DNA from: Morchella semilibera
Lineage: Eukaryota > Ascomycota > Pezizomycetes > Pezizales > Morchellaceae
Assembly: GCA_009192285.1 (NCBI GenBank)
Contig: WBVU01000021.1
Span: 340,995-404,994 of the forward strand
Length of the DNA stretch: 64,000 nt
Direction of reading: 5' to 3'
Part shown: piece by piece, positions 12,108-58,609 of the stretch
Position numbering within the stretch: the first letter of the stretch is position 1
Layout of the letters: each line of letters opens with the position of its first letter
The notes under the pieces: generated by a model
What the model saw: only the letters and a program-made list of their open reading frames with translations
What the model was told of the DNA's origin: nothing
The model's database searches: none
Program-made: the position numbers and the translations under genes

Positions 12108-13674
12108 GTGTTAACCTCGAACTAACAGCTCGTCGCGTTAGTAATATCGGATGCCTACTCGCCAAAGCCTTTTTTATAAGTACAAATGTTTTGCCAAGAG
12201 ATTTCTCTTGACCCCATTGGACATCAAGCATCGAATCTTCATGACATCTACTCACTCGATTGATTTAGTACCGTGTGATCGGGGCTAGTTGTGTGAACCT
12301 AGCTTAGCTGGAAGGAGGTGATCCAACCATAGAAGAACGGTTGTGTTTCTATACTACGTAGAGGTATCATCACTACCTCCAGGGCCTATTTGTACACCCC
12401 CGGTGTATATACATATAGGATAGGAATATTTACAGAGACAAAAAATTTGGCGAGTATAAGGAAGCTGCATAAGGCACGGACGGATCCCCGCGTCAAGGGA
12501 CCTAAGATACAGCGTGCGTAGCGACCTGGGTACACACCAGTGATCAAGCGGCAGTGGGCCCCCTCAAGGTAGAATACCTACGTGTTCCTTGGTAATTACA
12601 ACCGCTATCTCCACTGTGGATTGTGGTTTACATTCTTCAGATTGGCTGTAGCTCGGGGGTATGGGGGGTAGTAAGAATCAGTTAACTAATTTATTCGTAT
12701 TTTTACTCTTGGACGCATAAGAAAGACATTTGGAAAATCTCGGTAGGGTACCGATAGTCCGTTGCAACAGACCACCATGGCTTTTCGAAAGCCACTGTTT
12801 AAATGTGTCATGAAGTTCGCCGGTTTTTGCAAGAGAGACATTCTCTAAACGTCTGATACGTCCAAGGGATGGTGTCTTTCCCAAACAGCTGCAAATGCAT
12901 GCGGGTTCTTTGAGGCTCACACACACACACGGCTTCTCGCGCCATAGGTACTGTGCGAAGCAGTTGCAGGACTACGTCAGACGTCGCATGTACCTGAGCG
13001 GTACAGCCGCCCACCGGTGAGGACGGACACTGGGTGTTGACGAACAAGGGGATTTCAACGAATAAGAAATATAGTATTAAAAAGAAGCTTGGCTGTTTCT
13101 CGCCCATAGTCATAACCCCTGTCAGCGCCCAGTGTCCGTCTCACCCTGTGAATTTAACCACCAACCCCACCACCACCCTTTCGGTCGTGAGATTGGAGTG
13201 GGGTTACTCTATTATATATTACCTCAGGGCTACTTGGCTATGTTGCAACATCATAAGGCTGTCCGGACGGGCTTAAAATATTCCAGCTTCTTGACACGTT
13301 GCAAGACAAGCTCCAAAGTGTGGAGGTCTTGGCGTTTTGCTTAAATGGCCCCTCTATGTGCTAAAGTTATTAATCGACTCTTACTTATCTCACTACGATT
13401 TCTGGAAATTGGCAAAGTCTTTCTTTTTTCTTTACGTTTGTTTTAGGTGTGTGTGTGGGGCGGGGAGGGGTGGGGGTAAGCGTTTTAGTAGCGCCCTAAA
13501 ATATAAGGCTATCTTATATCGCTTCATCAATTGATTGTCGGCAAAAGGTATTAGTTTGGCTAATAGATCTTGTTATCACTCTCATATCAATTGAACTGCG
13601 ATTGGCACCCTAAAGATAGCCATAAAACAAAATGTGGTTCAATATATATTTAGAACTCGGGACCAAACCCGTAT
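12108..13674. other. Intergenic region with a MITE
   Basis: No gene is supported. The minus ORF at 12678-12926 (82 residues) has no recognised motif. A terminal-inverted-repeat element sits at 13015-13146. Confidence 0.5.
13015..13146. mobile_element. MITE, about 132 bp
   Basis: GGACGGACACTGGGTGTTGA on the left pairs with the reverse complement of CAGCGCCCAGTGTCCGTC on the right, flanked inward by GGGG/CCCC, with GGTGAG/CTCACC at the outer ends. Related single ends occur near 16510-16620, 43360-43390 and 49803-49830. The target duplication is unclear. Confidence 0.6.
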
Positions 13675-18429: not shown

Positions 18430-20281
18430 TTAGCGGTTGAAGTTGACCACCGAAATTGGTCGGGTTACGGGTGTCCCCAACCAGCATTACCCATCATGCT
18501 GGATCACATAGCCTTAAGGTACCACAAGCTGACGTGGTTCAAATGGAAAGTTCGAGACTAGAGAGACACCCGTCAACAGTTGTCATATCGCGTCCGGAAC
18601 CGACAAACTTAGGCCATATCTTGCGGCCCAATACTCGGAAACAGCCTGTAGCCATACCGCTCCGTGGAAGAAGGAACAGATGTACCCACTGAGCCTAACT
18701 GACCCATCTAGGAAGTCAGAGGTCCTCACAAGAGGGGGTCTTGATATTGCTCAAAGTTTATTTTTTGCAATATTTTTATACCATTGCGGCATCAGTTTAG
18801 GGGTAAAATTAATCTCGGGAGCTTGAATGTTGGTATAGCACCATAGTGCAAAAAGGGACTAGGACTTGGTGCTAGCCCTTTAGACAAGACGGCTTCAGAT
18901 TTGGGCCGTACGATTGATTTATCCGTTGATAAACTATGGGTCCGGACGTGCTCAGGTTCAACACAGGTGGAAAGGGCAATTTTAGCATTAGGGATCTCAG
19001 CCTGGGAACTGGAAGATAGGTAATAGACAATTCAGTTTTCGGTCTCCAAATTACAAAGGCCCAGTTACGGTCGCATACAAGTATAAGCAACACGGGGTTG
19101 CTAAGATCTTTCCTACCACCACTTGCCTAAGGTTGAAAGGAAGGAAGTGCTGCTAGCATTGAGGTCAATCATTAAGCGAGGACTTATTAAAGTAATCTCA
19201 GAGCTGGAAGAATCACTCTATCTATCACGTAAATATCTCTAACTTGGCAAGAGGTGTCTAACTGGACATTTTAAAAGGTGTTCACGCTCGGTCAAAGATT
19301 GCCATATGTAAACTCACGACCTAGGGCTTCTGTGAATAAGAGAATTTATAACTTAAGGGTTCGTTCACTTGATACCCTTAGTGGGCGAAGCTTAATCTAG
19401 GGCTTGATAGGAAGTGGAAATTCTATCTTTGTGCTGAACACGTTAAGGAGCCCAGCCTCTGATTAACTATTCGGTACTAGTGGAGTCGACGGCGATCGCG
19501 TATCCTGAGAGAAATCAGGCCACCTATGCCGTGCTTCGGAGCCAAACCTTACATAGGCAGCTAGCCGTTTTTCCACGTGATGATCACCAAAATTTGCCAT
19601 AATAAGAAAAACCGCCGAATTTTTGAATGCCAAAGTCTTGGTCAATTGGCTAATCTAGTACTCCCCGGCTTTTGAGAGACACGTCATAATTCTTTGTATT
19701 TTTTTATTGTGGCGAAAGGTCTCAGGGAATTCAAGGTGAGGCGTTGGCTCTGGGGGGCCGTACGAATTATATCCTTAATTGCTCCTGGGCATTTGGGCAG
19801 GGTTAGGGTTGGGAGAGCATGAAAAAATGCTCTACAGGCAGTACCCCATAACCACGACCGGCTAAGCCAACGCAGACAACCCCTCTGCAGAAACCTTACC
19901 ACGCACACAGAGTTAATAAATACCTGCACGTTGGAGTCTGGAAAGGTAACCATACGGGAGGAGAGACATTACATATCGCTACACGAGAGATTTCCTGAAC
20001 ATAAGGAGTTCCCGGCTGTGTATATGTGGGCTAGGGAGTATGCGGCTTTAACATACCGGAGAATTAACCTAACCAGAAAAAGTTTAATTATGAAAAAGGA
20101 AAATGAGGAGTAAACTAAAAAGCCTAAATAAAACTAAGCAGGAACTTCCTTCCAATCAGGGTAAAAGGTAAAACTGCCCTCAGTGGCGCCAACCGGAAGA
20201 TCAGACTCCAGAAAAAATCAATTCACCTTACACAATTCCCCAATACATCGGGGACAAAAGGAGAGTAAAAGGGAATGTTGA

Positions 20282-20396
20282 GTTCGTTACCTGGGATTCC
20301 CACATGGTCACCCACTGCAGTACTAACCAGGCGATATCGTGCTTGTGTATGGCAGAGCGAACGGGATGCCCAATTTTCACGATTCTATGAACGAAC
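20282..20396 (-). rRNA. 5S ribosomal RNA gene
   Basis: The minus strand shows the 5S pattern: GGGCATCCCGTTCGCTCTGC (helix III region), CCTGGTTAGTACTGCAGTGG and GTGACCATGTGGGAATCCC (internal control region, loops D/E). The terminal helix pairs GTTCGTT at the 5' end with AACGAAC at the 3' end. Helix II pairs ATCGTG with CACGAT, both differing from the Neurospora 5S as I recall it but still complementary, as expected of a functional molecule. A TTTT terminator follows within 20 nt. It is a single copy in an otherwise gene-free region, which matches the dispersed 5S genes of filamentous ascomycetes. The ends could be off by a few bases (115 nt here, usually about 118-120). Confidence 0.9.
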
Positions 20397-22299
20397 ACAT
20401 ATTTAGTGCTCCTGTTTGGATATTTGTTCGAATCAATCTATGGTACAAAGGTCACATGCAGTAAGAGTATGGCGTAAAGATTATCCACCAATCTGATATA
20501 TCGACAACACAGTATGTCTCAAATCTAACACAGTATACTAGTAGTTTCCTGACGTTTGGAAAAATGTATGCCATACAGAAAATGCACGCTAGCGCTGAAT
20601 ACACCTCGTTAAATACCTCAAATTCAAAACCATACCACATAATAAATAACACCAGTATCCATCATAGAATGAATACCCAACCAAATAGAATTTCTTAAGA
20701 TACAAATGTTTATTTCGAGTGGAAATCAGTCCGTGTATAGGTATATGTGATGTCTGTTTAAGGTCTTCTCCTTGCCTTTATATATTTTGGCATTTCAATT
20801 GTTTTCCCGGGGCTAAATATGGTAAATTAATCATAAATACCACAAACTCATATGATCGCTCGTATGTAGATTATTCATTTGAAATCAAAGTATCTAGGGA
20901 AACGAATGTGGGAAGGGTTTCCAGACCAAACGCCCATGATTACAGATCTCCTTGCCAGTATTACATGTAGCTTCAAATCCCCCACATGGCTTTGATTCCT
21001 TCACGGTTCTTATGAAATAAATTAGTAGTCGCTAACTTAGCATAACTGTGTTTGAGTCTTTCGCGAACACGCATCACGAGATAATTTTCTCTAACCTGGC
21101 GACGTACATCACGGAAGGAACCGTTATCCGGAATGTCCCGAGAGTGATAAAATCATTGGAGCTCTATCATTAAGATAAGAATCTGTAGAGATCTCCCGTT
21201 TGGCTGGAAGAACTTTTTTTTGTTGACGTTCCAGCTCCTATACAGAAGCCCTACTAACAAAGGGGAGCCTTCTGTCAATACACAGCCCAGCGACCACAAA
21301 ATACCGTAAGGGTTAATCAGTGATCTCTATCGAAACAACCACAAATGATGCGGGGATCGATCATTAGCCCCTGGGCGACTAGCCGTTTATTAACGGTGGT
21401 TATATAAATGATGATTCTAGAGCCCCCAACCGTTTTGCCAGCCTTCACACGTACACGAGTTTGTCATTTTGTGTGATAGCGTCTTGGTCACCTTCCTTAT
21501 TCTCCTAGGCATAATCTGCATTTTATGCTGGCTTACATTTACATCCCAAGAGCAAGAGGGCAAGGTGCCGCACAGCTCAAGAGTCGAATGAAGCATCGAA
21601 GAGAGTTATTAAGCACACAGATAGCGCACAACAAACTATAGTCGTGGGTTCGTGTTGCCCAGAGTGTCACCCGCACATCCACTTCACTATCTAGCTTGAC
21701 CTTGCACCTTCCACAAGGATAACCGAGGTAACACTTGACGTGTTCTTGCTAACACCGCATCTAATCAAGAGGGATTCTGGCCATGTCGGAGCCCAAGCAC
21801 TATCGCCTGCCGCTCTGTACCAGAGTTCCATCCCGCGTATAGGGATCTTTAACAAACCACTCGGCAACATATAATCCTCACCCCGCAGGTCACTATCCTC
21901 AAAGCAGTAACCCTAACCGTGTGAGTAGACCCCCTAATATGCGGTCGAGACGTGCGAGATGGCATGGGTGGGGCTAGCGCTGAGGAAAGAAGTATGCCAA
22001 GAAGGAAGAGGGCAGAAACGGGTCACCGTCATGTTGTAGTTCTCATGTGGAACAACATCTGCTGTTGATGGAACTTCTCCTTCCACGTAGGGGCGCAAGG
22101 GCGGCTCTGGGAGTTGGTCAGGACAGAGCTAGGTGGGGGAGGGAGGGGGAAGGCCGCACATTATATACCTACATATTTTGTTTCAGGGCATGAATGTCGC
22201 CAAGCCTTGAAGGGTTTCGGTTCGCAATATTTCTCTTGTCCTACAACACCGCGACCGTGTATCTCAGTGGAGTTGTGGAGTTGAAGTGTATCACCATAC

Positions 22300-27869: not shown

Positions 27870-30725
27870 AATGGTATATATAGCGACGGGATCAAAAGCG
27901 TTGACGCCCATATTCTCGGGAGTGTTATATCTAGTCAGTAGGTAAAATGGCTCAGGAGAATGTGGAGGGAAAACTCGATACCTTGTACGCTTACCGATCG
28001 TAAGCCACGCCTAGATTCCAGCTTTTCCCCGTCTCTGCGGCCCTCCTGGTTAAAGATCTCGGATATGGGCGCCGATACCCTAGCTCGGGATCATGCCGAG
28101 GAAGGGATAGCCTCCCGCTATTGCGTGACATCTTCACAAATCTCCTATTTACGTAAAGCCCTAGGATGAACTGTATTTAAATTGAAAACTCCGCAGTAGT
28201 ACACACTGCTCTCGAGTAGCTACTTGCCACATTGGGAGGTGCCCTAAGTCGTCTTTTGGGGCCCTCATGGCAGTAAGCACCCGTTGTGTCTTTTTATCCC
28301 CCACATGCCAAGACAACTCTACCCGGCTTCCGCCGGGAGGCAAATCCTGCCGGTGATTAAATGTATCATCCACTTTGTTCGACGCCCAGAAATCAAGTAC
28401 CGCATTAATTCGAGTGGACACTCATATTGACGTTGAAGTTAATTGTTCTAGTCATTTGTCTTCTAATCTTGCTGTAAAAGGCAACTTCGACGACTGTGTA
28501 ACCGTCCGCTGAGACGAATCACTGCGGTAGCCGAACCCAGCGCAGCTTTATCTTGCATTCATATTGCTGCTCCCACATTCCTAAAGCGAGTAAACATGCC
28601 GTTTCCGAACTCCATAGGGAAAAGTCACCCGAATCTACTCTCATCCGCCAAGAGATTCTAGGTGTAGAGTCGCTCACGGGTATGTGGCGACCACGGGTGC
28701 GTGGGAATTCCTACTTCTTCTCCTTCCACAGGACAGCTAAACTTATAAAAACAAGTAAAAGCGAAATAGCGTATGAGGCTTGGGTAGTTCATGGTCTTGA
28801 ATTATGAATTTTTGCAAATTGATTTTGGTACTCACCATGTTGAGACAGAAAGATCCCCACGTACCCGTGGTCACCACATACCCGTGAGCGAGTCTACAGG
28901 CACGCTTCACGGTGAACTAGTGGGTGGGGACTTCGTCCTTGGATATAGCAATAAGCCGGCGACTTGGTCAGGGGAATAATAAATTAATTGAATTTTCTCG
29001 GAGGCATCATAAGGTATCACTCGTTATTACGGTGTCTTGTCGTTTTGTAATATTAATAAATATATGGTATAGAAATATGTAGTAGACTTCGTTACTTTTA
29101 CAGTACTGAGTACAAGAGGGGTGCCTTATAGGGCGTATGGGGCAGTCACATATATGTATGTACCCCGGGGGTCCTCAAAGTGATGCGACGGCAACAAAAA
29201 ACACTAATTTCGCAGCCACTGGCCACCATGCCCAAAAGTCGGGAAGTAAATTATATTTGTCGAGTTGCATCAAGTGGAGCTATATAATAATAGTAAATAG
29301 AAATATCAGTGGGAAAAAATTGACTGGATCTAGCTTTGATGGTGGTCGCTACACCAGAATATTGACCTCGTTGCATCACTTTAAGGACCCCCCGGGTACA
29401 CCGGACAGATAGCCCGAGGCACAACGGTCGACTGCGCCCGGAAGCAACACATATATTGGGGCACTAGTATTAGCGGCCTACCTGACATGTCCCCTCCCAA
29501 CTCCCGACGCCACCTCGCGATAATTTCTGGTTGAATTACGAACTTTACACACCCGGGCACAGGTGATTGCATCTCACGCTGGCGTGGCGCCGATAAGCGC
29601 CGGCGTTAGGAGTTCTATATGTCCTTACGGCGGCCAAATTTATAGGCCGTAGAGATATACAACTATGACCAGTTAGTATTTGCGGTGTGCGGGGACTAAG
29701 TCTTCCCATAGGCCACTAGCGTTTCACCGCCGCCAGAATAAAAAGAACCGCCTCTGCACACTTTGCAAATGTCGGCATACCAGGCCTGTCTAATAGCCTT
29801 CAAACACTAGAGTTCCATTTCTGGATTATGTTTATCGAGGGTAGGGTTAGGGTTTGGTGGGTTCCTGCATGTACGCTCAACTCCCAATCAGCCAAGATGT
29901 TGTCTATTATGCTTTTGGCATATCAAGAGGTTCAGGCAATATTCCCAGCCCGTGAAGTGGTGTACCATATCACCGCTGATGTCTAACGTCTTCCGGCCAT
30001 ATTTCCGACATGCCTTGTGCCTGTCGTGCAGTATTGATTGGTGCGTTTTGGCCACACCCATTTTTCCGGGTTTATCCTGGCAGGCTATACCCTATCATCA
30101 AGGAAGACTATCCGGACCTCACTCCGCCAAAAAATGTATATTATATAGATAGACGCTCCTATGTCACCATCACTTACGTTAGGACCTATTCTTCCTGGTG
30201 CTATAGCAACAAGAACATTCTACAGCGTACACCCTCATGAAGGCACATATATTCATTTTGGATTCCGCCCCAGTCTCGTTTCGCTAATCCAAATCGGGTT
30301 TGATTGAAAACGCTAATCACAGAAAACTAAAGAGAATCAAGAAAGATAAAAAGTAAAGGAAACCAAACATAGGTAACTATAGGTGTAGACATGCCATAGA
30401 ACACGATCCTATGAACCTAAAAAGTTGCCATACTGCCCCTTTTGCCGCCTGTAGCTTTTAATTCTGTTGTCAAATACTGGCGCTCCGGGCTAAGTTCCCT
30501 CTCGGTCCACCAGATGTACCACCACCACTCCTTAGCCGCCTACGACTTCCGCCGTCGCGTCCACGTCTATCGAGGTTCGAGCCGGTCCATCAGCACAGGC
30601 CCTGTCATACACTAAAGCATCATCCCCACATCCAGACCGTCACATCACCCACTCCACAGCGCCCACCCCCCTGAAACAACCCAAAAGAACCGCAGTATTA
30701 TACCGGGGGAGGCAGGCGGGAGCAA

Positions 30726-32694
30726 CTAAAGCGGGGAAGGGGGTAGGGGAGAGCCTACCACGCTTGCCGTTACACCAATCGCCATTCCCAGTGCCAGTAG
30801 CCAACCTTGCGGGCTAAACAAGGGGTTCTGGGTGGCGAGGAGGCTGCTAGATATAGATGGTTGGGCGACCTGGAAACCAAAGTCAGCACCCGTGTTTGCT
30901 AGCTACCATACGGCTAGCCAGAGAGCCTAAAAGAGAAGAAAGCAATGAAAGCAAAAGGTAAGAAGGGTCAGCAGACCTCAGCTATCAGCAAGCTCACCCT
31001 CTTTTCACATTCCTTGATCCTCCTCACCAACTCCTCCACATCCCGCTCCCCCTGCCATTCCGCCAGAGGCTGCACCCCCTGCACCTCTAAGTCTATACGC
31101 ACACTGTGCAGCTGCCTGCTCCATCTCCTCAGTAGGTCCTCCACGGGCACCTCTCTCTGTTCGATCAGGATGGTGTCCTGCACCCTTGTCAGCCCACTCT
31201 ACCCAACCCGAAAAAAGAAAAAAAAGAAAAAAAGAAAGAAAGAAAAAAAGAAGAATATACCTCCCTCTTCCAGCCATTACCCACAACACCACCTATCGCC
31301 TCCTCCCAGCACCCAACTACCGCACATGCACATGCGCGCACCCACTCACCGACCAATATTACTCCATTCCTCTCCCCTCCTATGTCCATAGGCCCGTATC
31401 TGTCGACGGGTAGCGCGACAGGCGCGCCTATGGACGTGACCGTCCATGGGGCAGAATTACTGACTCTGCTGCCTTTGTTGTGGTTTGTGAGCGCGACGCT
31501 GAACCGCCGGTCGGTGATGGATGTGAGAGGGACCGGTGAGGTGGTGGTGGAGGTGGTCATGGTAGAAGGAGGGGAAACCTTGGGGTACGGCAGGGACAAG
31601 GCGTAGTACTGCAGTAAGGTCAGGAGGGTGTCAGTTATATACGTCATATGAGCATCCCACTCGCCAACTCTTCCAAGCATTTACAGCACTCCCCAGTACC
31701 TCCGCCAACGGCCCCTCGGAATACACATAGAAGAGCAAGGGAACAAGAGACACATACACTCACTCCACCTACTACCCTCTTCATGCCCCAACTTTCACAT
31801 ACCTGCCCTGATATATGCTCGCCGGCACCATCGTTGTCATCTTCGGTCCTGATTCTTTTCCGTCTCCCACCGCTATTAACCGCTTTACACGCGGTAAGGC
31901 TGCGCAAAAACCATATATCAAACGCCCACGTATCCCACGCCTGCCTCCGCTTGTAAACCCCGCTCAGTAGTATCGTTGTCGCTGCCGACGGCGTCAGTTG
32001 TGAAGACTTCGACCGTATCGTGATTATCCGCCCGCGGGCGTGCTCGCCTACCCGCTGTATAATTCGCTAGTTAGCTTCAAGAACTAAAGGGAGTTCTCTA
32101 GAGTGGGGGGGTAACGTACTGGCTGTATTAGGCGCCTGAGGAAAGCTATCTGCTCGTCCTCACTAGAAGTAGAGGAGGAGGAGTGGGCAAGTCCCGTCCG
32201 TTTGTACTCGTTTATCGTGAATGCTGGCGCGCCGTTGGCGTCGGTGAAGGTGAAGTCGGATAACGTATAGAGGAGTGGGGGGTGGGGAGGACATACATTC
32301 TGAGTAAAGCTGGAAGAGGATGGTGGTATCTGGGGTAGGTAGGATGGCCTTGGTTCAAGAAGGCGTCTACTGAGGCGAGTGGGGGCGAAGGGGAAGGGGA
32401 TTTTCTTGGGGAGGGGGGGGAGAGGGGGGGCAGAGGAGAGAGGTTGAAGTACGGGGGATTGGGGGGGTGTTACTAGGGGTGAGGTGAGCTGTTGAGCTGG
32501 AGGGGGGTTGTAGTGGCGGCAGCGGAGGGTGTTGGTAATTGTGATGAAGGGTGCGGAACTGGAGTTGGGATGGGGGCGGGGGGGTTGGCAGGCGGTGATG
32601 TTTGAGGGGGCTGCGGCTGCTGTCCTACTCCAGAGGAGGAGGGGGACCCCGGTGAGTGTGCGTTGGGCGGGCCAGCGCCCGCTGGTATATCCAT
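30726..32694 (-). CDS. Paralogue 1 of an unrecognised family with proline-rich N-terminus and C-terminal anchor
   Basis: The core exons read in frame as complement of (start of core)-32120, 31803-32054, 31363-31608, 30998-31177 and 30726-30869, all phase 0. Donors are GTACGT, GTATGT, GTAATA and GTGAGC. Core motifs are FPFAPTRLSRRLLEP, SYLPQIP, LLYTLSDFTF, FLRRLIQP, LTPSAATTILLSGV, WDTWAFDIWFLRSL, YYALSLPYP and SNSAPWTVTSIGAPVALP. A charged helical segment follows (VEDLLRRW..ECEKR), then a C-terminal hydrophobic stretch, GWLLALGMAIGVTASVVG. The likely start (ATG at 32694, MDIPAGAGPP) opens in a different frame from the core; an intron ending in CTCAACAG (near 32485) would join them, but its donor is uncertain. 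The last intron is the least certain of those within the core. The neighbour at 36.1-37.9 kb is a clear homologue. I know no named family with this pattern. Confidence 0.65.
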
Positions 32695-33329
32695 AATTAT
32701 TTTGAGTGTCATAATATCTGATACCGTCAAGATCCCTCTGCTACTCTCACAAAAAAAGATCAAGTACAAGCTTAAGGTATATAGTGGGAGTAGATGTGGG
32801 TAGACTCTGGTGCCCCTCGCCCACCACCTTCCCCGCTTTTCCCAGCTTCGTCCCCACCCAGACTGCCTAAAACCTTACCCACGTGGCCACACCACCCGCC
32901 ATTTAGCTGCCCACTGGTACTCTACTGTGTTCTTAACCTGCAAACCAACGCGGCACCAATCAGGGTGTTAAACTGCGCAGCGCGCAGGTTACGGCAAAAT
33001 CTCGAGGATCTTTACTCTAAGAGGAAGGAAACAGCTTAATGTAGTTTAGCTGGTGGCCTTGGAAAGTATCGGGTGTGCATGACCAGACTTGACAGCGAGT
33101 AACAGGTCAACCTCTTCTCAACCAATCGAGCTTAAGTGTAGGTACGTGTCCGGTGAGGGGTATGGTAACTATCCACCACTGGGTAACAGGCTAGTCCTTA
33201 ACCACTGGACATCTTCACTCGGGGGCGAGCACGAGAATTCAAGGAAAACCAACAGAAATACTTATTTTGCAGACGATTCTATTCATATCAATTTTCCTTG
33301 TGCTGCGGGGGTAGGGAAAAGTCCCCATC

Positions 33330-33722
33330 TGTATCCTTAGAAAGCCAGGCCAAATCGAAATCAGAGTGACCTAACGCAAAGTGGAAATCGTGATATAGTA
33401 AACTCAAGACTGATATGAATGTTTGTCTTGCAACGTACAATTCGTCACTTATAGGTATGATAATTTCTGTCGTTACTACGCTTATCCCTTAAGCTGTCAC
33501 CAAAGTGCTGACCATTTTTGTGGGGGCCAAAAGTGTGGCTTTGCTAACGAATTCCTTCAATTATTGGATCTGAACCAATCTCTAACCAATTGCTTGTCCG
33601 CAATTGCTGTGGCTTTTTGGTCAGCATATGACAGCTTAAGGGATAGGCGTGCTTAATATCCCGATTTCTATTTTGCGTTAGGTCACTCTGATTTCGATTT
33701 GGCCTGGCGTTCTAAGGGATAC
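33330..33722. mobile_element. Foldback element with a second inverted repeat nested inside
   Basis: Outer arms of about 60 bp (33330-33391 and 33662-33722; GCCAGGCCAAATCGAAATCA inverted) are nearly identical. Inner arms (about 33482-33516 and 33619-33652; TATCCCTTAAGCTGTCA inverted, then GCTGACCA) form a second stem. No coding capacity and no clear target duplication. Either one MITE inserted into another, or a single foldback element with two stems. Confidence 0.75.
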
Positions 33723-35302
33723 TCCCTGTGGTCGGTTAACCTTGTTAGGCGTTGTGAAACCGACTCTGCGCGAGATAGCAGGTGTTGGGTGTCTCTACGG
33801 AAAACGTTTTGTCGGTAAAAGAGAAAATAACAATAATAAAATAAATAAAGTCCTGGTGTTCTGGGGGGTTTGGGATATAATGGTCGATTTTAGATAAAGG
33901 GATACGTACTTGATAGCCAGTATTTAATTGGATCGATAATCCGGCCAACGGCTTCCGACAACATTTATGAGCCTAAGTCCCATTAGGTAACACTAAATTG
34001 AAATACCCAAGACTCTGGTACATACATAGAGGCATATCAGATATCGTTTTTTGAACTCCGTGCTTAACCATACGCCGTTTGATTCAACACCCCTTCGACG
34101 AATAAGAAGCTTAAGGCAGTATTCACCCTGCAGTCTCGGTCCGCCCCGTTCGTTATTGTCCACTTTTCACGGTATTCCTCATACCATGCATGCCAAGGCT
34201 CCCCTAATGCATGCATTAAAGTCTTGGATATTTCAATTTAGTGTTAACGACTATGGTGGTCATTGGCTAACAGACTCTAATCAAAGTAGCACAAGATTAG
34301 ACACTTTAAAGCAACAAACAAAAAACCACTTCTTTACAAGGCCTCAAAGACATGCATGTTGGGTGCAAGTGGGATGTTAGTTAGGGTTAGTTAAGGTTAG
34401 TTAGGGTTGCATTTTAGCAGCAGGTGTATGCTGGTAATCTAGATGTAGACCCTTTTGGACCGGATTTTCTCGGCGCATGTTGAGCTAATAAAGGGATATG
34501 CGAAAAGGTTAGGTCAGGTGGATTTGATAACGGGTTGACAATGCGCTGACCTACAGCAATAGATTCTCGAGGTATAATAGGATCATGGTTAGGATTTGGT
34601 GAATGATGACGATTGAGATTTAGGTCAAGATTTAATGATCCACAACCTTTAAAAAAAATTTCTTCTTGGCAGCTCGGCATACAAGGGTGCTGTATGTATG
34701 GTATTATTGATATGTCTTTTATTTAAAATACGTATTTTTCCGATTGCTAGTGGTAGGAACTGCGGGTTTAGGGTCAGGGTCAGGGATACTGACACTAGGA
34801 GCTGGCACTAAGAAAAAGAAGTCCCCCTACGCACCCACAGTACTCCTACCCACGGTATTTATATCCTACTAGTATAGAAAGACTCTATCTTAGTGTGTGG
34901 GGTATCGACCTCCACCCAGTATAGGCGTACAGCGCCGGAAATACCAAACACCAACCCAGCCGCACCAGACCAAAGACCACCTCCTCCGGCCCAACACCAC
35001 CACCCAAGCCCAACCCCAGCACCTCGTCACGGCCTTGAAAGGCTGAGGAACCCAAAGACCCATCTCATCTCCATATCCGACCAGCAACTGCAAGCCACAC
35101 CCTTCATCTCCCCCACCTGCGCAAACCAACCCTCTCCCTTTCCTGCCCGCGGACCTTTACATCCAACCCTGCACATACCGCTACATGCCCCGGAACACCA
35201 GCTGCACGCACACACAGCCAGCTCACGCGCATCTCACCCCCGTTGGTGCAACGAACGAGACGGGACTAACATCCACCATACCAACCAACCCCAACCCAGC
35301 GC

Positions 35303-35327
35303 AGGGTTAGGGTTAGGGTTAGGGTTG
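35303..35327 (+). repeat. Interstitial telomere tract
   Basis: Four GGGTTA units lie in C-rich sequence about 0.8 kb beyond the 3' end of the second paralogue. Confidence 0.85.
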
Positions 35328-36140
35328 TAGAGGAAGTGTCCGGCATTTTGTTTCATTTGGGGGAGTCCTGGCATGACCACCAGTCTCTCTCTTGAAACAG
35401 GCTCTATCTCAGCACGCTGTGGGGTGTTTAGCCGCACTCCTGCCCAACCCGGCATCTCCACGTTTATGCGCGTCACGCATGCCTTCGTCATTGTACTAGC
35501 GCATAGTAACGTCTGCCGCGCGCCGATTCCGGCCCCGGTGCCTCCGGCTCTGTAGTATCTCGAACCCCCTATACCCACAACCCAAACGCCTCAAGCCAAA
35601 CGGATTGACAGCCACGCACCACCACCGTGAACGACTGGTTGGTTGGTTGGTTGGTTGGTAGTCCATACCCACTGCGCACGAATAGAACCCCCCCCCCCCG
35701 CCAGCGTCTGGCAAAAGCTGACCTCCCCCACAGGAAAGAGGTTGTGTGGCTTTACTAGCAGCTACGATTGATCTCTAGATATCATGCCAGACGGAGGGAT
35801 ACCAGGCACAACGTATAACCCCCGGATCTGCGGGGGCGGGCAACAAGCGTGTATTATCAAAGCTCGACAAAGAAGAAAAAGAAAAAGAAAAAAACATGCA
35901 TGCATGCAATGCCATTATGTTACCTGCATCCCCACCAACCAAGTATATCATAACTCCCCCCGCCACCCCCCCCCGCCAGAAACCTCCCAAAAAAAACCTA
36001 CGTAGCCATCTCATATACCACCCCCCTCGCCCCCGGACACTAGATACATACAACACCCCCAGCAGACACACGGACGCAAACACCGCCAACACCGCTCCCC
36101 CCCCCCCCCCCGGCGCAAAAACATCCACGTCCACGGCACA

Positions 36141-37922
36141 TCAGTACGCCGCACCCCCCCACCTCGAATCCCGCGCCCGCCCGCCCTTCCAACCCGCCAT
36201 CCACAGCGCCAAGACCCCAATCAGCACCCCCACCCCCGCAACCATCAAGCCCACCCCCACGGCCATCCCCACCGCCACCACCTCCTCCCACGCCGCCAAA
36301 GGAGCCCCGCCGGTAAGCTGCCACACACACCCATTAGCAACGCCCCAACCGGCAACGACAAGCAGGGCACAAACCTGCGCCTCCACGACCGCCATACAGT
36401 CTCGGAACCGCCCCACCAGCCCCGCCCACCACACGCGCAGCACCCCCTCCACGACCGCCACACAGTCCCAAAACCGCGCCGCCGGCCCCGCCCGTAGTAG
36501 CATCTCCTCCCCAGGCGGCACCCCCGCCGGCGCCGGCATCACCGACGACACCCCCCCAACCGGCTACCACACATTAGCACCGCAACCACCAACACACACC
36601 AGAGGGCCCAAACCTTCGCCAGCACAGCCTCCACAACAGCCGTACACTCCCTCAAGCGCTCCACCAGCCGCGCCACCCCCGCCCACGCGCCCCCTCCCGG
36701 CACCTCAACAATCACCAGCAACAACCGCGCACCCGCCAGCTGCGCCCGCCACGCCCGGAGAACCTCGCCCCCCGCTGTCTCCACGCCGTCTACCACAACC
36801 GGGTCCTACCCATCACGTCAGCGCCACACACACAGGGCAGGGGGCGGAGCAAACCCCTCTGTCGCCGCCGCGCAGCGCGGTGAGCGCCGTCTCCCAGCTT
36901 TCCACGACTGCGTCGAGACACGCGAGCAGCCAGCGCTGGACCTCGGCAGCAGTGCCCCCCGTTGGCAGCGCGACCGGCGCGGCAACGCCAACGAGCGTCC
37001 ACGGCGCCTCGTTGCCGACCGCTGGTCCATGCGTTGTCAGCGCGGCCGTGAAGCGGCGGTACGTCACGCCGCCGTCGTGAAGCACCGGATACGGGAGTGA
37101 CACGGCGTAATACTTTGCGCGTTAGTGCTACCGCAGAGGGTGGGGGGGGGGGGACATACGGATACGCCGTTGACGAGCCTGCTGACGCCCCACTCTGCGG
37201 CGTGGAGGGCGCCGCCGCACCCGGATAGGCACCGCAGCACCCATACGTCGAACGGGAAGGTGTCCCAGTGCCTCTGTGGGTCGTGGACGCCGCTCACGAG
37301 GAGTGCGGTTGCGGCTGAGGGCGTCAGTGTTGCGATGCTGAGGGTGCGGCCGCGGGTGGGCGTGGCCGTGCGCTGGGGTTGTTAGTGTGCGGACCCAGGG
37401 GGGCGGGGGGGACGTACGGGGGTTATGAGGGCGCGGAGGAAGGCGGTTGTGGCGGTGGCATCGTGGTCGGAGGAGGAGCGCACGAGGCCGAGCCAGCTGT
37501 AGTCGCGCACTACGAAGGCGGGTTCTGTGGTGGAGCCGGGGGCAGAGAAGGTGAAGTCTGGGAGGGCGTAGAGGAGCGCGGGGATGGGGGGTGGCAGGAG
37601 CGCGCTGATGTGGGCGGTTGAGCCCGGGATGCGGGGGAGGTAGGGGGGTGTTGGTTCGAGGAGGCGGGTGCTGAGGGGGGTGGGGGCGAAGGGGTAGGGG
37701 ATTGCGAACGGGAGGGGGGGTGGCGGTGGGGAGGGTGGTGGAGGTGGTGGAGCGGGTGGATCCGCGGGCGGCTCTGCGACTGTGGCCGGGGGGTCGGGGG
37801 CGGCGGGACTGGTGCTGCTTCGGCGGCGCCGACGATCGGGAGGAGCGGGAATATCAGCTCTGGAGGATCGACGTGGGCCGGCGGTGGTGGTGCTGCTGTC
37901 TCTGGCTCTGGTGTAGACGTGC
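36141..37922 (-). CDS. Paralogue 2 of the unrecognised family, extremely GC-rich
   Basis: Core exons in frame: complement of (start)-37418, 37160-37372, 36855-37112, 36614-36805 and 36141-36563. Motifs parallel paralogue 1 in order: YPFAPTPLSTRLLEP, PYLPRIP, LLYALPDFTF, FLRALITP, LTPSAATALLVSGV, WDTFPFDVWVLRCL, YYAVSLPYP and GNEAPWTLVGVAAPVALP. The first two core introns sit at the same places as in paralogue 1. The C-terminal part holds imperfect helical repeats (LRECTAVVEA, FWDCVAVVEG, FRDCMAVVEA) and a long hydrophobic segment, VVAVGMAVGVGLMVAGVGVL. The sense strand is strongly G-rich. The natural ATG (about 37922, MSTSTPEPET) is out of frame with the core, as in paralogue 1. The donor of the fourth intron is uncertain. 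The plus-strand ORF over 35896-37080 is a composition shadow. Confidence 0.62.
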
Positions 37923-38537
37923 TCATAACCCTTCTCCGTCGCCGTGTCATTGTGTGTTGTGAAGGTGTGTGGGCGGAGGTGCAGAAGACACAGTGTGATG
38001 TGGTGGTTGCCTGATGCGCTTGTGTGGCGGTGGCTGGGGCTGGGGCTGGGGCGGGTTGTATGCAGCGACAGAGTGTGTAACTTGGAGAATATGCGCAAGG
38101 TAAATTTGTCTCCCAATCTGGCAATTGTAAATGTGGACTTGCGCACCCGACCTGTGATGAGAGTACATGTGGACAAGTAGGGGAATATCACACACCCGCA
38201 GCACGAGCTTGCGTCCTTGTCAGTCCCCCCAGGCTACAACCGAAGAACAAAGATCGAGTACCCGTATCAGGGAGTGTAGAGCCCTTTCTCACACAAAGAT
38301 GAACGTGTCAACGAGGGATTCTGTCCGCAGCTCGTGCATTTTACGTCATGTTGAAAAGCTGTTTCTTCATAGCGGTGTGAAACACTTTAGCTCTGTGGGT
38401 TAGGGTTCGGAGATGTATGTCGCCCTGAGTAGTTACAAGTTCGATGCTTTCCCGCAGGAAGTTCTCTACTGTGTAGCTTTCTTCCCACCCGCTGCCTACT
38501 CCGCGATATGTCCCGCGGGGTCCGGCCCGCTTCGTTC

Positions 38538-40712
38538 CGGGGGGAGTGAGAAAACGTTTATGATACCATGTAAAGCCGGGGGGGTTGGTTTACAATACCA
38601 TGACCCGCTAAAAAATACCATGACAAGGAAACTTTGAAGCAATAAAATACAAAGCAATAAAATACAAAGTGACTATCTGCTAATTTACTTAAAAGTACGG
38701 ATCCTACAACTCCTGGCATTATGCCCACTCTGCCCGCAACTAGAGCATTGTTGTTGGATTTTCCCAGTAGCACGGCTCCTCTGGCCAATAACTCCTCTGG
38801 CCTTCTTTCTCTTTCCTATAGTAACCCGACCAGTTGGGGCTATAACAGTCATTCTGGCCTCTAGTATAGGGTCCTCAAATCGCTCCTCCACATTGGCAGC
38901 TGGTGTAGCGCCGATACTAGTGCCGAGAATAGCGCCAAGATTTTCCGGTGGGTTGTTTAACTCTTGGGTTTGAGGTTCCGCTAATGTTGTTAGGAAGGCG
39001 GTAGGGCGAAGATTTTCTGAATAAGTACTTTTCCAAGTGTCCGTAAGAAAGGCTGCAGATATGTATGCATCCAGACGGTGTCCAAGAGCATAGATAAAGG
39101 CGATTGCATGTTGGCAAGGAATATCACAGTTCTGAAACTCTCGGCAGGAACAGGTGCGGGCCTCCAAATTAACAGTCCAAACTAAATTCTCCGGTCCAGG
39201 TTTGATAACAAGCGCATTTTGATCATCACCCCTCCGGACCAGGAACTGTCTAGCGGTTTGACGTTCTTGTATAAGGATCTTTTCACAATACGGGGTAAAG
39301 ATTTTTCCAGCTGCAATATTTTTTGACGCCTCCAGTTTAGCAAATCTTGACTCCATTAGGTAGTGCCAAATCTCTTGAAGAAGCTCAAGGGCTGGTAGTT
39401 CTCTTGCTTTTCCTAAGATTGAATTCATCGCTTCAGCTGCATTTGATGTTTTTTGACCAAATCTTCTGCTTACTCCACCTGGAATAAATGCGGTAACCCA
39501 CATTTTCCTGTCAATACTTAGCAAATAATCCGCAGCAGACCCTTGTTCTTGCCGTAATCGATTTATTGCTGTAAAATAATCTGTTTCTGAAACTGCATTT
39601 GCAGCTTTCCAGAAATACATCTCATTTGTTTGTCCATATCGGCGTAGAAAGTTCTGCCGGAGGTGTTCAAGACAATACAGCCTAACTATTCCATTTCCAA
39701 GCACATCCATTCCTGACAGTAGTCCTTTATCGCGATCACTCATTATAGTTGCAGTACAGATGTCGGGTATTGCGGCTTTTAGGTGGTGAAAAAAATATGA
39801 CCATGATTCGATATTCTCGCTTTCCACAATTGCCCAAGCGAGTAACAGATAATCATTGTTTGCATCCACTGTAACGGCTAATAGGAGGGTCTGTTGATAG
39901 TGCGATTTAAGAAATGTCCCGTCAACAGCAATAAAAGGTCGGCAGTGAGAGAAAGAGATTTGAGACTGTGATGGACAGATAAAAATCCGGCGGAAATAAA
40001 CAGTAGTATTTTCGATTTGATTTGGAAGTACTTGCAAATTGCTATACAATTGCATATTTTCTTTCTGGACAGTGATGAGGTATTCTGGAATCCGTTCAAA
40101 CTGTTTTGCTTGCTGTTTTGCTTGTATTTGGAGAAGTCGGGTCCGAGTTTCGTGTGCGGCTTGATAGGTTATTTGTTCTTTATGGTGTAACTGAATAGAA
40201 TTGATAATATCCTGTGCTGTCGTGTCACGATTGACAATAAGAAGAGTGGGTACCACTCGCATTAACCAGGATTGAGAATTTGCTGTTGGCCGTGATGGTA
40301 GAGCTGCTCCTATACAAGAATGCTGCATATTTAAAATCCGTACTTGCACATCACTGTTATCCTTCTTTGTTGCAAAAACCCTCCAAGTACACCCCTCTTT
40401 GAAGGAATGACAGCAGAAATCCACGCGTTGGCGGTCCCTTAACCGAGTTCTATAGGTGAATTTATCTTTGATGGACCAATCCTGAACAACTGTCTTAAGT
40501 GCATCAAAGGATTGGAAAAACTGGCCAACCTCGCTAGGATTTGACATTGTAAATGATAGTCGATGGTTGAGGATAGAGAACTGGCTACCGTTACTAGAGT
40601 GTTTGTATTCTGTTTGGTTGTCATGGTAATTTTTCACGGGTTGTGGTACCTTAAACTTACCCCCCTGGCTTTACATGGTATCATAAACGTTTTCTCTCTG
40701 ATCGGGGGGAGT
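38538..40712 (-). mobile_element. Mutator-like (MULE) transposon, apparently complete
   Basis: The exact 10-mer CGGGGGGAGT occurs at 38538-38547 and 40703-40712 and brackets the element. Terminal inverted repeats of about 80 bp start GAGAAAACGTTTATGATACC at 38548 and, inverted, at 40696. They are perfect over the first 30 bases and imperfect after. The right end carries six extra bases between the repeat and the duplication. A 10-bp duplication suits the Mutator superfamily (8-11 bp). The single ORF fills most of the interior. Perfect duplication and an open transposase suggest recent insertion into GC-rich DNA next to paralogue 2. Confidence 0.93.
38685..40547 (-). CDS. MULE transposase
   Basis: 620 residues from the ATG at 40547 (MSNPSEVGQFF); the frame stays open upstream into the right inverted repeat but without an ATG. 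Residues 30-80 form a MuDR/WRKY-GCM1-type DNA-binding finger (FCCH..GCTWRV..QHSC). Residues 205-300 form the DDE domain: first Asp in AVDGTFLKS (about 209), second in SDRDKGL (about 271), then YCLEHLRQNF; a plausible catalytic Glu lies in SNAAEAMN (about 372). Residues 466-480 are a SWIM zinc finger (CSCREF..CQH) and 601-614 a CCHC zinc knuckle (CSSCGQSGHNARSC). This is a full-length MULE architecture without visible interruption. It would cut and paste the element by binding its terminal repeats. The stop lies about 55 bp inside the left repeat. Confidence 0.93.
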   Translation of the reverse strand: MSNPSEVGQFFQSFDALKTVVQDWSIKDKFTYRTRLRDRQRVDFCCHSFKEGCTWRVFATKKDNSDVQVRILNMQHSCIGAALPSRPTANSQSWLMRVVPTLLIVNRDTTAQDIINSIQLHHKEQITYQAAHETRTRLLQIQAKQQAKQFERIPEYLITVQKENMQLYSNLQVLPNQIENTTVYFRRIFICPSQSQISFSHCRPFIAVDGTFLKSHYQQTLLLAVTVDANNDYLLLAWAIVESENIESWSYFFHHLKAAIPDICTATIMSDRDKGLLSGMDVLGNGIVRLYCLEHLRQNFLRRYGQTNEMYFWKAANAVSETDYFTAINRLRQEQGSAADYLLSIDRKMWVTAFIPGGVSRRFGQKTSNAAEAMNSILGKARELPALELLQEIWHYLMESRFAKLEASKNIAAGKIFTPYCEKILIQERQTARQFLVRRGDDQNALVIKPGPENLVWTVNLEARTCSCREFQNCDIPCQHAIAFIYALGHRLDAYISAAFLTDTWKSTYSENLRPTAFLTTLAEPQTQELNNPPENLGAILGTSIGATPAANVEERFEDPILEARMTVIAPTGRVTIGKRKKARGVIGQRSRATGKIQQQCSSCGQSGHNARSCRIRTFK

Positions 40713-43984: not shown

Positions 43985-44040
43985 GACGTTAGTTAGGGTT
44001 TAGTTAGTTAGTTAGGGTTAGTTAGGGTTAGTTAGGGTTC
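43985..44040 (+). repeat. Degenerate telomere-like array
   Basis: Mixed GTTAG and GTTAGGG units (TTAGTTAGGGTTTAGTTAG, then GGGTTAGTTAGGGTTAG). The alternation of 4- and 6-base spacing differs from the plain TTAGGG tracts at 26.7 and 35.3 kb; 34378-34408 is a shorter array of the same kind. Confidence 0.75.
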
Positions 44041-45683: not shown

Positions 45684-48027
45684 CTATTTAACATAACAAA
45701 TGGCGCGTGGCAGGAGACTCACAGTTTTGGTAGCTTGAACCAGTAATTTCCCATTCCATTCCTCGATGAACCTAGCTACATCAGGGTTTCTAGCCCACTG
45801 GTCAGGCGTGAGACCCCTCCAGTCGCGGGCGAGAGTATCTGCACCTCCCCAGCATATTTCATCAATCAACCAAAGGTCACCAAACCGCGCCGCAAGGTGT
45901 AGAAGGGTTACGCCTGCATTGTTCGTGACGTTGACTTTTGCCCCATTGTTGAGCAGAATCTGGCAGATTTCCCTCGAGGAGAAGCGCCGACTAGCTGCTC
46001 TCATAAGTGGAGTGATTCCATAATGATCTGACACGTTTACTTTCGCCCCAAGCAGGACTAAAAGTTGAACCATACTTGCCGTGCCAGCGGAAGCTGCTAG
46101 CGCCAATGGAGTGAGTCCTTGACTATCCTTGGCTTCAATATCTGCGTGGTGATGTAGTAAGGTACGCACAATGTCCTCCCTCCCGAGTATAGTGGGCTCT
46201 TTAGTGCCCGATATCGGACTTTGTACAGTGGTGCCATATTCCATGAATTTGGGATAATCTCTTTGGACAGCTATATGGAGTAGCGTTCTCCCGTATTGAT
46301 CTTTATCATTTACGTCGGCCCCACCCTCCGAGAGTGCTTTGGTAACAGTCACAGCACCATGTTGGACAGCTCTACGTAAAATGCGCCGTATCCCGGTACT
46401 GTGCATGTCGAATTTAGCACTGGTAGCACTAGGGACTAGCAAAGTGGCTCTAGGCTCTTCTGCTGCCGGGGGGGGTAGAGGGTCCTCTGGTACCATACCG
46501 GTGCTCGGACCACCCATCACTCTGTCCAACACTGACGATATTATAGCAAGATCCTTTGACTCCAGACATCCGCGGATCATCTGTTCCATCCAGGTAATAT
46601 CCCCTATCTCGAATTCTACTTTCTCTAATAAGGTGGCAACTATAGCCGAATTTCCAGTTTTTATAGCTTGGTTTAATCGCTGCCTAGCGGGGGTTACGGG
46701 GTTAGCCTATTCATGGGGTATTATGGGTAGGTCCTATGACAAGAAAAGTCGATATTTACCGGCTACCGACACCCCAATCCCATTTGAGATAATCGTACAT
46801 TACCAGGACCTTTACTGTACGTTCATGTTGGTTCAGAATTGCAGCGTCTAATGCTTCGTCGCCATTTGGCAGGAGCGTGCTTCCGCTATAACCGCGCTGG
46901 AGCAAGTCGTGAACCTCTTGGTGTCTTCCTGCCTCGGCAGCAAGGCCAAACGCATATTTCGGAGTACGTATTTCTCTCAGGGTCTCACCTTTGGACCGAC
47001 CTTGGGGATCGGTTCGGTATCGCCCAGGCTGGTGGAGCTTATCTACGTTGATCGCCAACAGCACTGGACCTACAGCTTTATCTGCTAGGGTGGTGCCCGA
47101 TGTTTCGCGAAGGGATACCGGCATAGAAAATACAGAGTCATTGGAGTACGCTGTATACATTGACCAACGTCCGATGCGGGTCTGAAGAGTGTCTCTTGAG
47201 AATACAGAACCGGAGTCACTGGCTCTTCTGTATGCGCGGGAGCGGGATAGGGCCGAGTCGAACTCATGTCTACCAACTGATGTAAAGGACGAAGCAGTAG
47301 TGCTCATAGACATCGTGGAACCTGAGGCATTGGTGGATGAGCTGGCAATACTGTTAGCTAACCTGGGGTTAGTACGCTTAATTTATCCGATTCGATATGT
47401 GGCATCACCTTGGTTTGCTGCTAACGATTCAGCATCAAAAGCGCTGCTAAGACGTTCCTTGCTCGATAAGGCCCAGTTTAAGGATTCGCTACGCCAAGAA
47501 CGGGGTTAGTTTATGTCCACCAACCTGCTTAGCCTGATGCGGGACTCATGGACAAAAAAAAGCTGTATAAAGGGGCTTCCGGAACTTGACTATTCTAGCG
47601 CAACTCACCAGGTGAGAATTGTGAAAATTAGATTCAAGGACGTCTCATGCCGATTTAACCGAGCTAAGATGTTTAAGAGAGTTTTCTCGGCCCTCCACCA
47701 CTTCATTCTATCCCACAAATCGATCCTCCCACTGGCCTTTATCCTGTCCAGCTCCCACTCCAGCTCCGAGATTGTGCAAACCGCTGCTGTCAGTACGGAC
47801 GTTAAGTGGTTGATGTCAATGAGCGCGGCGCGCTCGGGATCAAGTGTATTACTATCGATCACCGTTTCTTGGATCTTGAGAAGTATATAGCGAAAGTGGT
47901 TGACTTCGTCATCTAGCTGCTGGGCTAGTGCCGGAACATTCTTGACTGAGCATATAAACTCCACAAGTATGTGGCTTATGCGCGCCCCAGCCACCAGAAG
48001 GCCTACCACCGAGGCTGCAACCTCCAT
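45684..48027 (-). CDS. HeLo-like/ankyrin-repeat protein, full-length paralogue
   Basis: Exons: complement of 47609-48027, 46760-47350 and 45684-46683, phase 2 at both junctions, 669 residues. Intron 1 is 258 nt (GTGAGT donor, TACTAAC near the acceptor); intron 2 is 76 nt (GTAAAT, CTAG). Residues 1-139 are an all-helical domain starting MEVAASVVGLLVAG, matching the fungal N-terminal domain of STAND proteins. Residues 140-250 are a Ser/Thr/Arg-rich linker (TMSMSTTASSFTS). From about 255 there are ankyrin repeats (YGRTLLHIAV, QGLTPLALAASAG, YGITPLMRAASRR, AGVTLLHLAARFG, RGLTPDQWARN). No nucleotide-binding domain is present. In NLRs the N-terminal domain triggers a regulated, often lethal, response and repeats sense the ligand; here that is inference. 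A GTGAGT near the 3' end could mark one more terminal intron. Confidence 0.82.
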
Positions 48028-48764
48028 GATCGACAGTGGACCTTGATAGGACGGCGGGGTCGCTTAGTGGATCTCTCTGAACAAGTATAGCGTTTTGTAG
48101 CGCAGGAGAAAGGTTGACGGATTGATTTGGTCCCTTAATGTTTGGGAGTGTAGAGACGATGGATGGATTCGAATTCGATCGATCAGGCTTCATTGCCAAT
48201 TGGTCTTTGCCTGAGACCTACCCCGCACGCGGTATACTAGATACTTAGTGTAACATTAATCTAGGGTTAGGGTTTCGAACAAACCTTCCGCCGGGCTGCG
48301 GCTTCTTCAGGTTGGATCCCTGGAGAGTACTGAAAAGTGCGGCGAAAACCTACCGAATCATCCACCCCGACCCTTGGCTCCAACAGAATGATCTGAACCA
48401 TGGTCCACACAAAACATGGCTCACCTATCCCGTTGGTTTAATTAAGACTCACACCTACACACGCCCTCCTCGCCCTGAATCTAGCATCTTGATGCGATAT
48501 CAATGGTGTAAGATGTGGTTATAAACATCCGATTACTACCCATGGGTCATTGGAGCATAGGTGTATACTAGAAAGCCGATTTCTTGCAGTAAATGCAATG
48601 ACCTGTAGTGCTAGGATAAGGTAAATGTACAACCGGAGTCTTCAGTTCCAAAAATTGATTGATATCATTATGAAGACAGATAGATAGCATGATTATTGAT
48701 AGAGAAGCTCATTCATGTTCCTAGACCCACCCTCCTCGATTAATAGAGCCAACTAACACCACTA

Positions 48765-57945: not shown

Positions 57946-58609
57946 GCTCCTCAACTAAGTTGCTTTGCAGGGGGTTGTCCTAGATATCTCACAAAGGGGT
58001 TTGGTGTTTGCCGGTATCAGGCGGGAGATGAAACCAGTCTTTACAATCAGGAGAGGTAGAGATTCTTGTCACCAAAGCGCTAATCGACGTACTTCTACCC
58101 CACCTAGTAGCTCTTGGGGCTTAGGGTTATGACAACGCCTTGTTTACAAAGAGGTGAGTTGGCTCAGGGCTAGGGTTCTATCATAAGTTATGCAAGGCTG
58201 AAGAGAGCAAACAAACAAGGCCTTGTGAGATAGTACCGCCATTACTCGAAAGATTGGCTATGTATCAAAATTACTATAAGCAGACCTGATCTACGCCCTA
58301 CAGCCAATCGTGAAGGAGGTAATCCCTGGCCGGAGATAGCCAATTTTGGAGTTTTTTGCGGTATCCGTATGCTAGAGCTAGGCGCGTACCATAGTATTTC
58401 AAGCGAACCTTTGACCTATGGTTTAATACGCGGAAGTTTTTAGTACCCTAGTTGAAAGGAAAAGAATAACTTGCATGTGCTATGTCGCATTACAAACCTG
58501 GCGTTTGGGAGGAAATAAAATTCAGAAAGGTACTTAGGGATAAAGGAAAGTGGGTGAGGGTCTGAGTCTAAGGAGCTCTAGGAGTTGATAATACATTTGC
58601 CAAATTGCC

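Follow-up and report, generated by a model that had tools for sequence, protein, structure and literature searches.

A pair of diverged paralogous genes in Morchella semilibera with a shared core that matches none of the domain libraries searched and a C-terminal hydrophobic segment

Two genes on the minus strand of a 64,000-nucleotide stretch of the Morchella semilibera genome (assembly GCA_009192285.1, contig WBVU01000021.1, positions 340,995 to 404,994), here called the window, are diverged paralogues, which we refer to as genes A and B. We propose, at slightly less than an even chance, that they are two working members of a lineage-restricted fungal family and that they encode tail-anchored proteins with a cytosolic core. 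An earlier note on this DNA had described the pair as lying about 3.4 kb apart, a spacing that we recovered between the stop codon of gene A and the candidate ATG of gene B. Coordinates are collected in Table 1.

The paralogy that the earlier note had read from shared motifs is borne out by alignment. The two proteins are identical at 139 of 365 aligned positions (38%; blastp E = 4e-64), or at 44% without the tails. Their local alignment scores 546, against a maximum of 81 among 500 local-window shuffles, and this score, together with the blastp E value, excludes a chance likeness. Taken singly, exons 1, 2, 3, and 4 score 216, 132, 153, and 78, against 75, 43, 50, and 44, respectively, for the best of 500 shuffles. 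The six motifs that had been written out do occur in the same order in both genes, with small corrections: TRLLEP in gene A corresponds to RRLLEP in gene B, LTPSAATALLVSGV in gene A stands against LTPSAATTILLSGV in gene B, and APWT and APVALP are separated by five residues, not four. Counted from where the conserved core begins, gene A encodes 440 amino acids when spliced, and gene B encodes 437, its 5' limit at 32488 being an assumed acceptor site.

Introns were placed in both genes in this analysis, by sequence. The shared introns lie at the same places in both genes, as had been claimed, but they number four rather than two. All four are in phase 0, and they fall after LI[TQ]P, before YYA, before D[PT], and before the last exon. 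A fifth intron, found only in gene A, is tied to an exon duplication. The gene A introns are GT-AG introns of 45 to 57 nucleotides (nt), all in phase 0, and CTAAC, CTAAT, or CTGAC occurs near the acceptor in each of the five. The last exon of gene B is best read without an extra intron, to the stop at 30726; spliced alternatives exist.

The differences between the copies are distributed as they would be under constraint on the protein. Across 316 aligned codons, base identity at codon positions 1, 2, and 3 is 0.576, 0.623, and 0.430, compared with 0.268, 0.256, and 0.301 expected from composition. Nonsynonymous divergence (dN) is 0.56 and synonymous divergence (dS) is 1.39 (NG86) or 1.90 (LWL85), giving dN/dS values of about 0.40 and 0.29 that are rough owing to saturation. 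The shared four-fold sites are identical in 37 of 94 cases, versus 36.3 expected from per-exon composition, while 142 of the 316 aligned residues are identical. Synonymous memory has thus been lost while the amino acids were kept, which is the pattern of two working protein genes, and no internal stop occurs in the spliced core codons (440 in gene A and 437 in gene B). Both genes are probably functional, as judged from this pattern.

Downstream of the core, the helical segment that the earlier note had assigned to both proteins is indeed common to them and helical looking, as judged by eye; we call it the neck. Exon 5 of gene A is similar to the 3' portion of exon 4 (78% over 73 nt) and carries a duplication within itself (85% over 48 nt), and introns 4 and 5 are alike by eye. 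Since the segment is duplicated in gene A and present in a single copy in gene B, the neck is a place of length change.

Relatives were sought in Pfam, PHROGs, NCBIfam, the PDB sequences, and viral and prokaryotic contigs, a scope without fungal proteomes in which the family, apparently undescribed according to the earlier note, is at most a candidate for that term. The earlier statement that no known domain has these motifs held in the four databases, which gave only weak matches. Pfam returned no match for gene A up to E = 10 and only CvfB_2nd (E = 0.082, below the cut-off) for gene B. Six single exons or exon parts likewise gave nothing above the Pfam cut-off; the matches below it for gene B exon 4 were Shugoshin_N, DUF1652, and ABCA12_C. 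NACHT and NB-ARC domains and ankyrin, WD, and TPR repeats, the hallmarks of fungal NLR-like proteins, were all missing from the Pfam matches of both genes. PHROGs gave one weak match for gene A (phrog_34999, E = 0.034), and NCBIfam gave five below the cut-off, all for gene A, to IlvA-type threonine ammonia-lyases and OrtB (best E = 0.041). Nothing in the PDB sequences fell below E = 0.2, the nearest being scaffoldin chains 4wi0 and 4u3s (E = 0.21 to 0.56) and an orotate phosphoribosyltransferase (E = 1.4). We take all of these weak matches, including the PALP match mentioned below, as chance; all are below the cut-off where one exists. Two pattern scans each of the viral and prokaryotic contigs produced 11, 21, 11, and 15 matches and no relative, and text searches of the literature, in which sequences are not searchable, found no title on the family. 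Within the window, tblastn (E up to 10) recovered genes A and B and otherwise weak matches. The best candidate for a third copy (gene B residues 54 to 84 against positions 5501 to 5409, E = 0.048, with a stop inside) looks compositional and may be a decayed remnant; it was rejected.

The C-terminal hydrophobic stretch with GMA.GV that had been reported is present in both genes. The hydrophobic segments lie in the last 40 residues of both proteins and are followed by about 20 residues in gene A and 7 in gene B. The best hydropathy of gene A was equalled by 6 of 3,000 residue shuffles and by none of 3,000 nucleotide shuffles of exon 6, and that of gene B was equalled by 13 of 3,000 nucleotide shuffles of exon 5. 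A second hydrophobic stretch (hydropathy, 1.69) lies within the core of gene B. On these comparisons, a predicted membrane anchor is well supported for gene A and modestly supported for gene B.

Tail-anchored proteins have a single hydrophobic segment near the C terminus and no N-terminal signal, are inserted into membranes post-translationally, and keep their N terminus in the cytosol. A single hydrophobic segment close to the C terminus is what we find in both proteins, in weaker form in gene B. Because the best hydrophobic stretch stands at the extreme C terminus, the simplest reading is a tail anchor whose core faces the cytosol. The proline-rich, probably disordered N terminus and the core of about 220 residues would then lie on the cytosolic side, and a single C-terminal membrane helix would be inserted post-translationally into an internal membrane. 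The helical neck, longer in gene A through exon duplication, could mediate self-association. We speculate that the core would serve as a binding module held at the membrane surface, and we infer that both genes are expressed and that the family is restricted to its lineage.

Several observations weigh against this reading. The last exons alone score 35 when aligned, and the maximum among 500 shuffles was 39, so the homology of GMA.GV rests on position more than on score. The gene B segment is modest, its hydropathy of 1.82 being equalled by 282 of 3,000 residue shuffles. The gene A tail lies in GT-rich, A-poor DNA, which favors hydrophobic residues and makes stops rare, and another frame on the same strand reaches a hydropathy of 2.47 there. 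The acceptor of gene A intron 2 is AAG, which is less usual than CAG or TAG. Exon 4 of gene A has a weak PALP match (E = 0.021), below the cut-off and absent from gene B, that agrees with the IlvA-type matches in family and in the part of the exon covered. The AlphaFold models were unusable, with a mean predicted local distance difference test (pLDDT) score of 33.5 for gene A exons 1 and 2 (read through intron 1, three rows) and of 49.3 for gene B exon 3 (two rows); the strands and helix drawn in these low-confidence models are not reliable. The absence of a signal peptide, which was judged by eye and without a predictor on candidate 5' exons, may also mislead.

The composition of the tail raises the alternative that the proteins are soluble and lineage specific, the hydrophobic tail being mainly a by-product of GT-rich DNA. 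The G content of gene A exon 6 (0.56 overall and 0.73 at third positions), the second hydrophobic frame, and the residue shuffles of gene B are all consistent with this explanation. We consider it somewhat unlikely, given that nucleotide shuffles reached the observed hydropathy never in gene A and seldom in gene B, that the segment takes the same position in the two genes, and that GMA.GV is common to both. The last exon of gene B, moreover, is not G rich (GC skew, -0.20), so composition does not explain the gene B tail. The earlier note had instead combined the proline-rich start and the C-terminal segment, both of which stand, into a suggested surface or endomembrane receptor-like role. A receptor at the surface finds no support in the position of the segment at the extreme C terminus or in the candidate N termini, and it would require that the true 5' exon encode a signal sequence. 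In both genes, the candidate start codons and the core are separated by a proline-rich stretch and stand in different frames, and 59 one-intron solutions in gene A and 6 in gene B join a candidate ATG to the core, none of the 14 and 6 examined being compelling; a TATATA at 32783 lies upstream of the gene B candidates. This breadth of choice would accommodate a type I protein of the surface or secretory pathway, with a cleaved signal and an extracellular core, and a C-terminal membrane helix suits such a protein as well. However, no obvious signal peptide was seen by eye in the candidate N termini examined (14 of 59 for gene A and 6 of 6 for gene B), and the residues that follow the helix would make a short signalling tail in either protein. 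We regard a type I protein as distinctly unlikely.

That either gene, or both, is a silent or decaying copy stranded among transposons is very improbable. A Mutator-type element does end about 0.6 kb from the gene A candidate ATG at 37950, the interval between the genes contains an inverted-repeat element, and the 5' frames are not directly continuous with the core. Against decay, both cores are stop free despite saturated synonymous sites, an argument weakened in both genes by the placing of the introns in this analysis and, for gene A, by A-poor DNA, in which stops are rare.

VAP/Scs2 tail-anchored proteins consist of a globular N-terminal part, a helical stretch, and a C-terminal membrane helix, an architecture that the predicted products of genes A and B resemble. 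Genes A and B differ in that neither has a Pfam match to the MSP (Motile_Sperm) domain or to any other family above the cut-off, and in their longer core and proline-rich start. Should the core turn out to have a new fold, it would be an additional protein domain.

Among filamentous ascomycetes, orphan or lineage-specific genes are the subject of two papers (PMC10684091 and PMC3778014), whose passages considered here describe genes in which, as in A and B, no known domain was found, and genes A and B sit among transposons and ankyrin-repeat genes in a similar way. Those orphans are defined in these passages by absence from other fungal genomes, with expression data, whereas genes A and B are known from sequence alone. 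Pyronema confluens is described as having an unusual abundance of orphan genes (PMC3778014), and lineage-specific genes of Neurospora as clustering near telomeres with HET-domain genes (PMC10684091). With orphan families common in fungi, one more is not surprising.

Both genes also show a compositional switch along the coding strand. In gene A, the third-position GC skew goes from -0.81 up to about +0.75; third positions in exon 1 are 0.78 C and 0.08 G, and those of exons 4 to 6 are 0.70 to 0.78 G and 0.10 to 0.12 C. The introns of gene A follow (GC skews of -0.50, -0.42, +0.12, +0.57, and +0.41 for introns 1 to 5), as do its 300-base flanks (-0.42 upstream of the core and +0.53 downstream). 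In gene B, the skews are -0.56, +0.23, +0.03, and +0.45 for exons 1 to 4 and -0.31, +0.35, +0.24, and -0.10 for the introns, with -0.39 upstream and +0.30 in the 300 bases after the stop. Four-fold skews match between genes A and B for exon 1, at -0.77 and -0.79, and for exon 4, at +0.72 and +0.79, the latter resting on 46 and 23 sites. They disagree in exon 2 (-0.49 and +0.48), exon 3 (+0.06 and -0.26), and the last exon (+0.66 and -0.22), which counts against a simple gradient. The AT skew by thirds is 0.03, -0.14, and -0.45 in gene A and 0.03, 0.13, and 0.01 in gene B.

When the skew difference of neighboring stretches was scanned across the window, the centers of genes A and B ranked 1 and 2 with 800- or 1,000-base halves; with 500-base halves, gene B ranked 1 and gene A ranked 4. 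The other peaks listed were at the outer edges of the two genes or in other places. In the published test of 100-base ends, applied here to cores outside which the true 5' exons lie, the difference in skew was 1.31 for gene A and 0.81 for gene B (to the stop at 30726), values that none of 1,000 shuffles of each reached. Among 12 control frames, hand-picked from the 32 open frames in the window and being single frames rather than whole genes, 3 had P < 0.05, and the largest end difference was 0.48. Both genes therefore have a C-biased 5' end and a G-biased 3' end beyond shuffles, the last exon of gene B being slightly C rich.

Passages of McLean and Tirosh (PMC3315797) report C-biased 5' and G-biased 3' gene ends in unicellular fungi, extending into flanks and synonymous sites with a flat AT skew, and offer two ideas for their origin, either mutation in the course of transcription phases or selection acting on elongation. 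Genes A and B are skewed in the same direction, which was thus already known. The published skews are, in these passages, mainly averages over many genes, whereas here two individual genes have end differences exceeding those of 12 controls from the window, and in gene A the AT skew falls while the GC skew rises. Notable here are the size of the skew, the introns that follow it in gene A, the falling AT skew of gene A, and the matching skews of exons 1 and 4 after saturation. The value of the pair lies in this comparison, in which synonymous sites have been randomized, yet the same opposite skews are kept in exons 1 and 4; genes A and B are an extreme case on which both published ideas could be tested.

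The proline-rich start lies in C-rich DNA and the Gly/Val-rich end of gene A in G-rich DNA, so the character of both may partly follow base composition. We raise the rather unlikely idea that a strand-asymmetric process is still writing C early and G later into each copy, shaping the proline-rich start and the glycine/valine-rich end of gene A on a tail-anchored scaffold with a new domain. Such a process would have been strong enough to re-create the skews of exons 1 and 4 in the two paralogues once synonymous memory had gone. Long self-pairing of the transcripts found no support, the minimum free energies being just slightly under those of shuffles: -730.1 for gene A, against -718.3 (standard deviation [SD], 13.1) for 20 local and -715.6 (SD, 8.2) for 20 global shuffles, and -476.3 for gene B, against -464.4 (SD, 9.0) and -460.5 (SD, 9.5). 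An antisense gene opposite gene A was not adopted either. This 433-codon open frame (35779 to 37080, plus strand) is longer than expected, its length being matched by 34 of 2,000 local and 16 of 2,000 synonymous/local shuffles; its best match outside gene A (E = 0.33) lies opposite gene B exon 3 and is no convincing counterpart.

Table 1. Features of genes A and B and of their surroundings, in positions of the window
Feature	Position	Strand	Details
Gene A core coding part	36141..37711	minus	Exons 37711-37418, 37372-37160, 37112-36855, 36805-36614, 36563-36375, 36317-36141 (stop)
Gene B core coding part	30726..32488	minus	Exons 32488-32120, 32054-31803, 31608-31261, 31177-30977, 30869-30726 (stop)
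Gene A core domain, exons 1-3	36855..37711	minus	IPYPFAPTPLSTRLLEP to APVALP and the helical-looking stretch after it
Gene B core domain, exons 1-3	31261..32410	minus	
Gene A 5' proline-rich region	37712..37950	minus	Candidate ATGs at 37950, 37926, and further upstream
Gene B 5' proline-rich region	32489..32712	minus	Candidate ATGs at 32712 and 32694; possible intron 32628-32489
Gene A helical neck, exons 4-5	36375..36805	minus	Three copies of an FRDCMAVVE-like segment
Gene B helical neck, exon 4	30977..31177	minus	One copy, IKECEKRVSLLIAE
Gene A last exon, hydrophobic segment	36141..36317	minus	At residues 402-420 (of 440); maximum hydropathy over 19 residues 2.55
Gene B last exon, hydrophobic segment	30726..30869	minus	GWLLALGMAIGVTASVVGS, 7 residues from end; best 19-residue hydropathy 1.82
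Compositional switch, gene A	35800..38200	minus	C-rich on the coding strand before about 36960 and G-/T-rich after it, introns and flanks included
Compositional switch, gene B	30600..32700	minus	Weaker and less regular, same direction, center near 31980; last exon opposes
Mutator-like transposon	38545-40699		88-nt inverted repeats (84% complementary); 661-amino-acid frame matching MULE, DBD_Tnp_Mut, and SWIM
Short element between B and A	33335-33717		62-nt inverted repeats (94% complementary), nested 22-nt pair; like a non-autonomous transposon
Ankyrin-repeat frames	45684-48063, 55723-57954, 11023-12110	minus	
5S ribosomal RNA gene	20279-20398	minus	82.1 bits
Telomere-like interstitial CCCTAA repeats and GTTAGTTAGG arrays	about 35300-35325, 34376-34408, 43988-44039		

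The window as a whole has a G+C content of 0.48 and contains short GT-AG introns, which, together with the 5S gene, the Mutator-type transposase gene, and the ankyrin-repeat frames, indicate a eukaryote and most likely a filamentous ascomycete. Among the ankyrin-repeat frames, Pfam matches cover 11023 to 12110 and 45684 to 46706, and the repeats at 55723 to 56661 were recognized by eye. The frame at 47605 to 48063 matches PigL_N weakly (E = 0.0074, below the cut-off).

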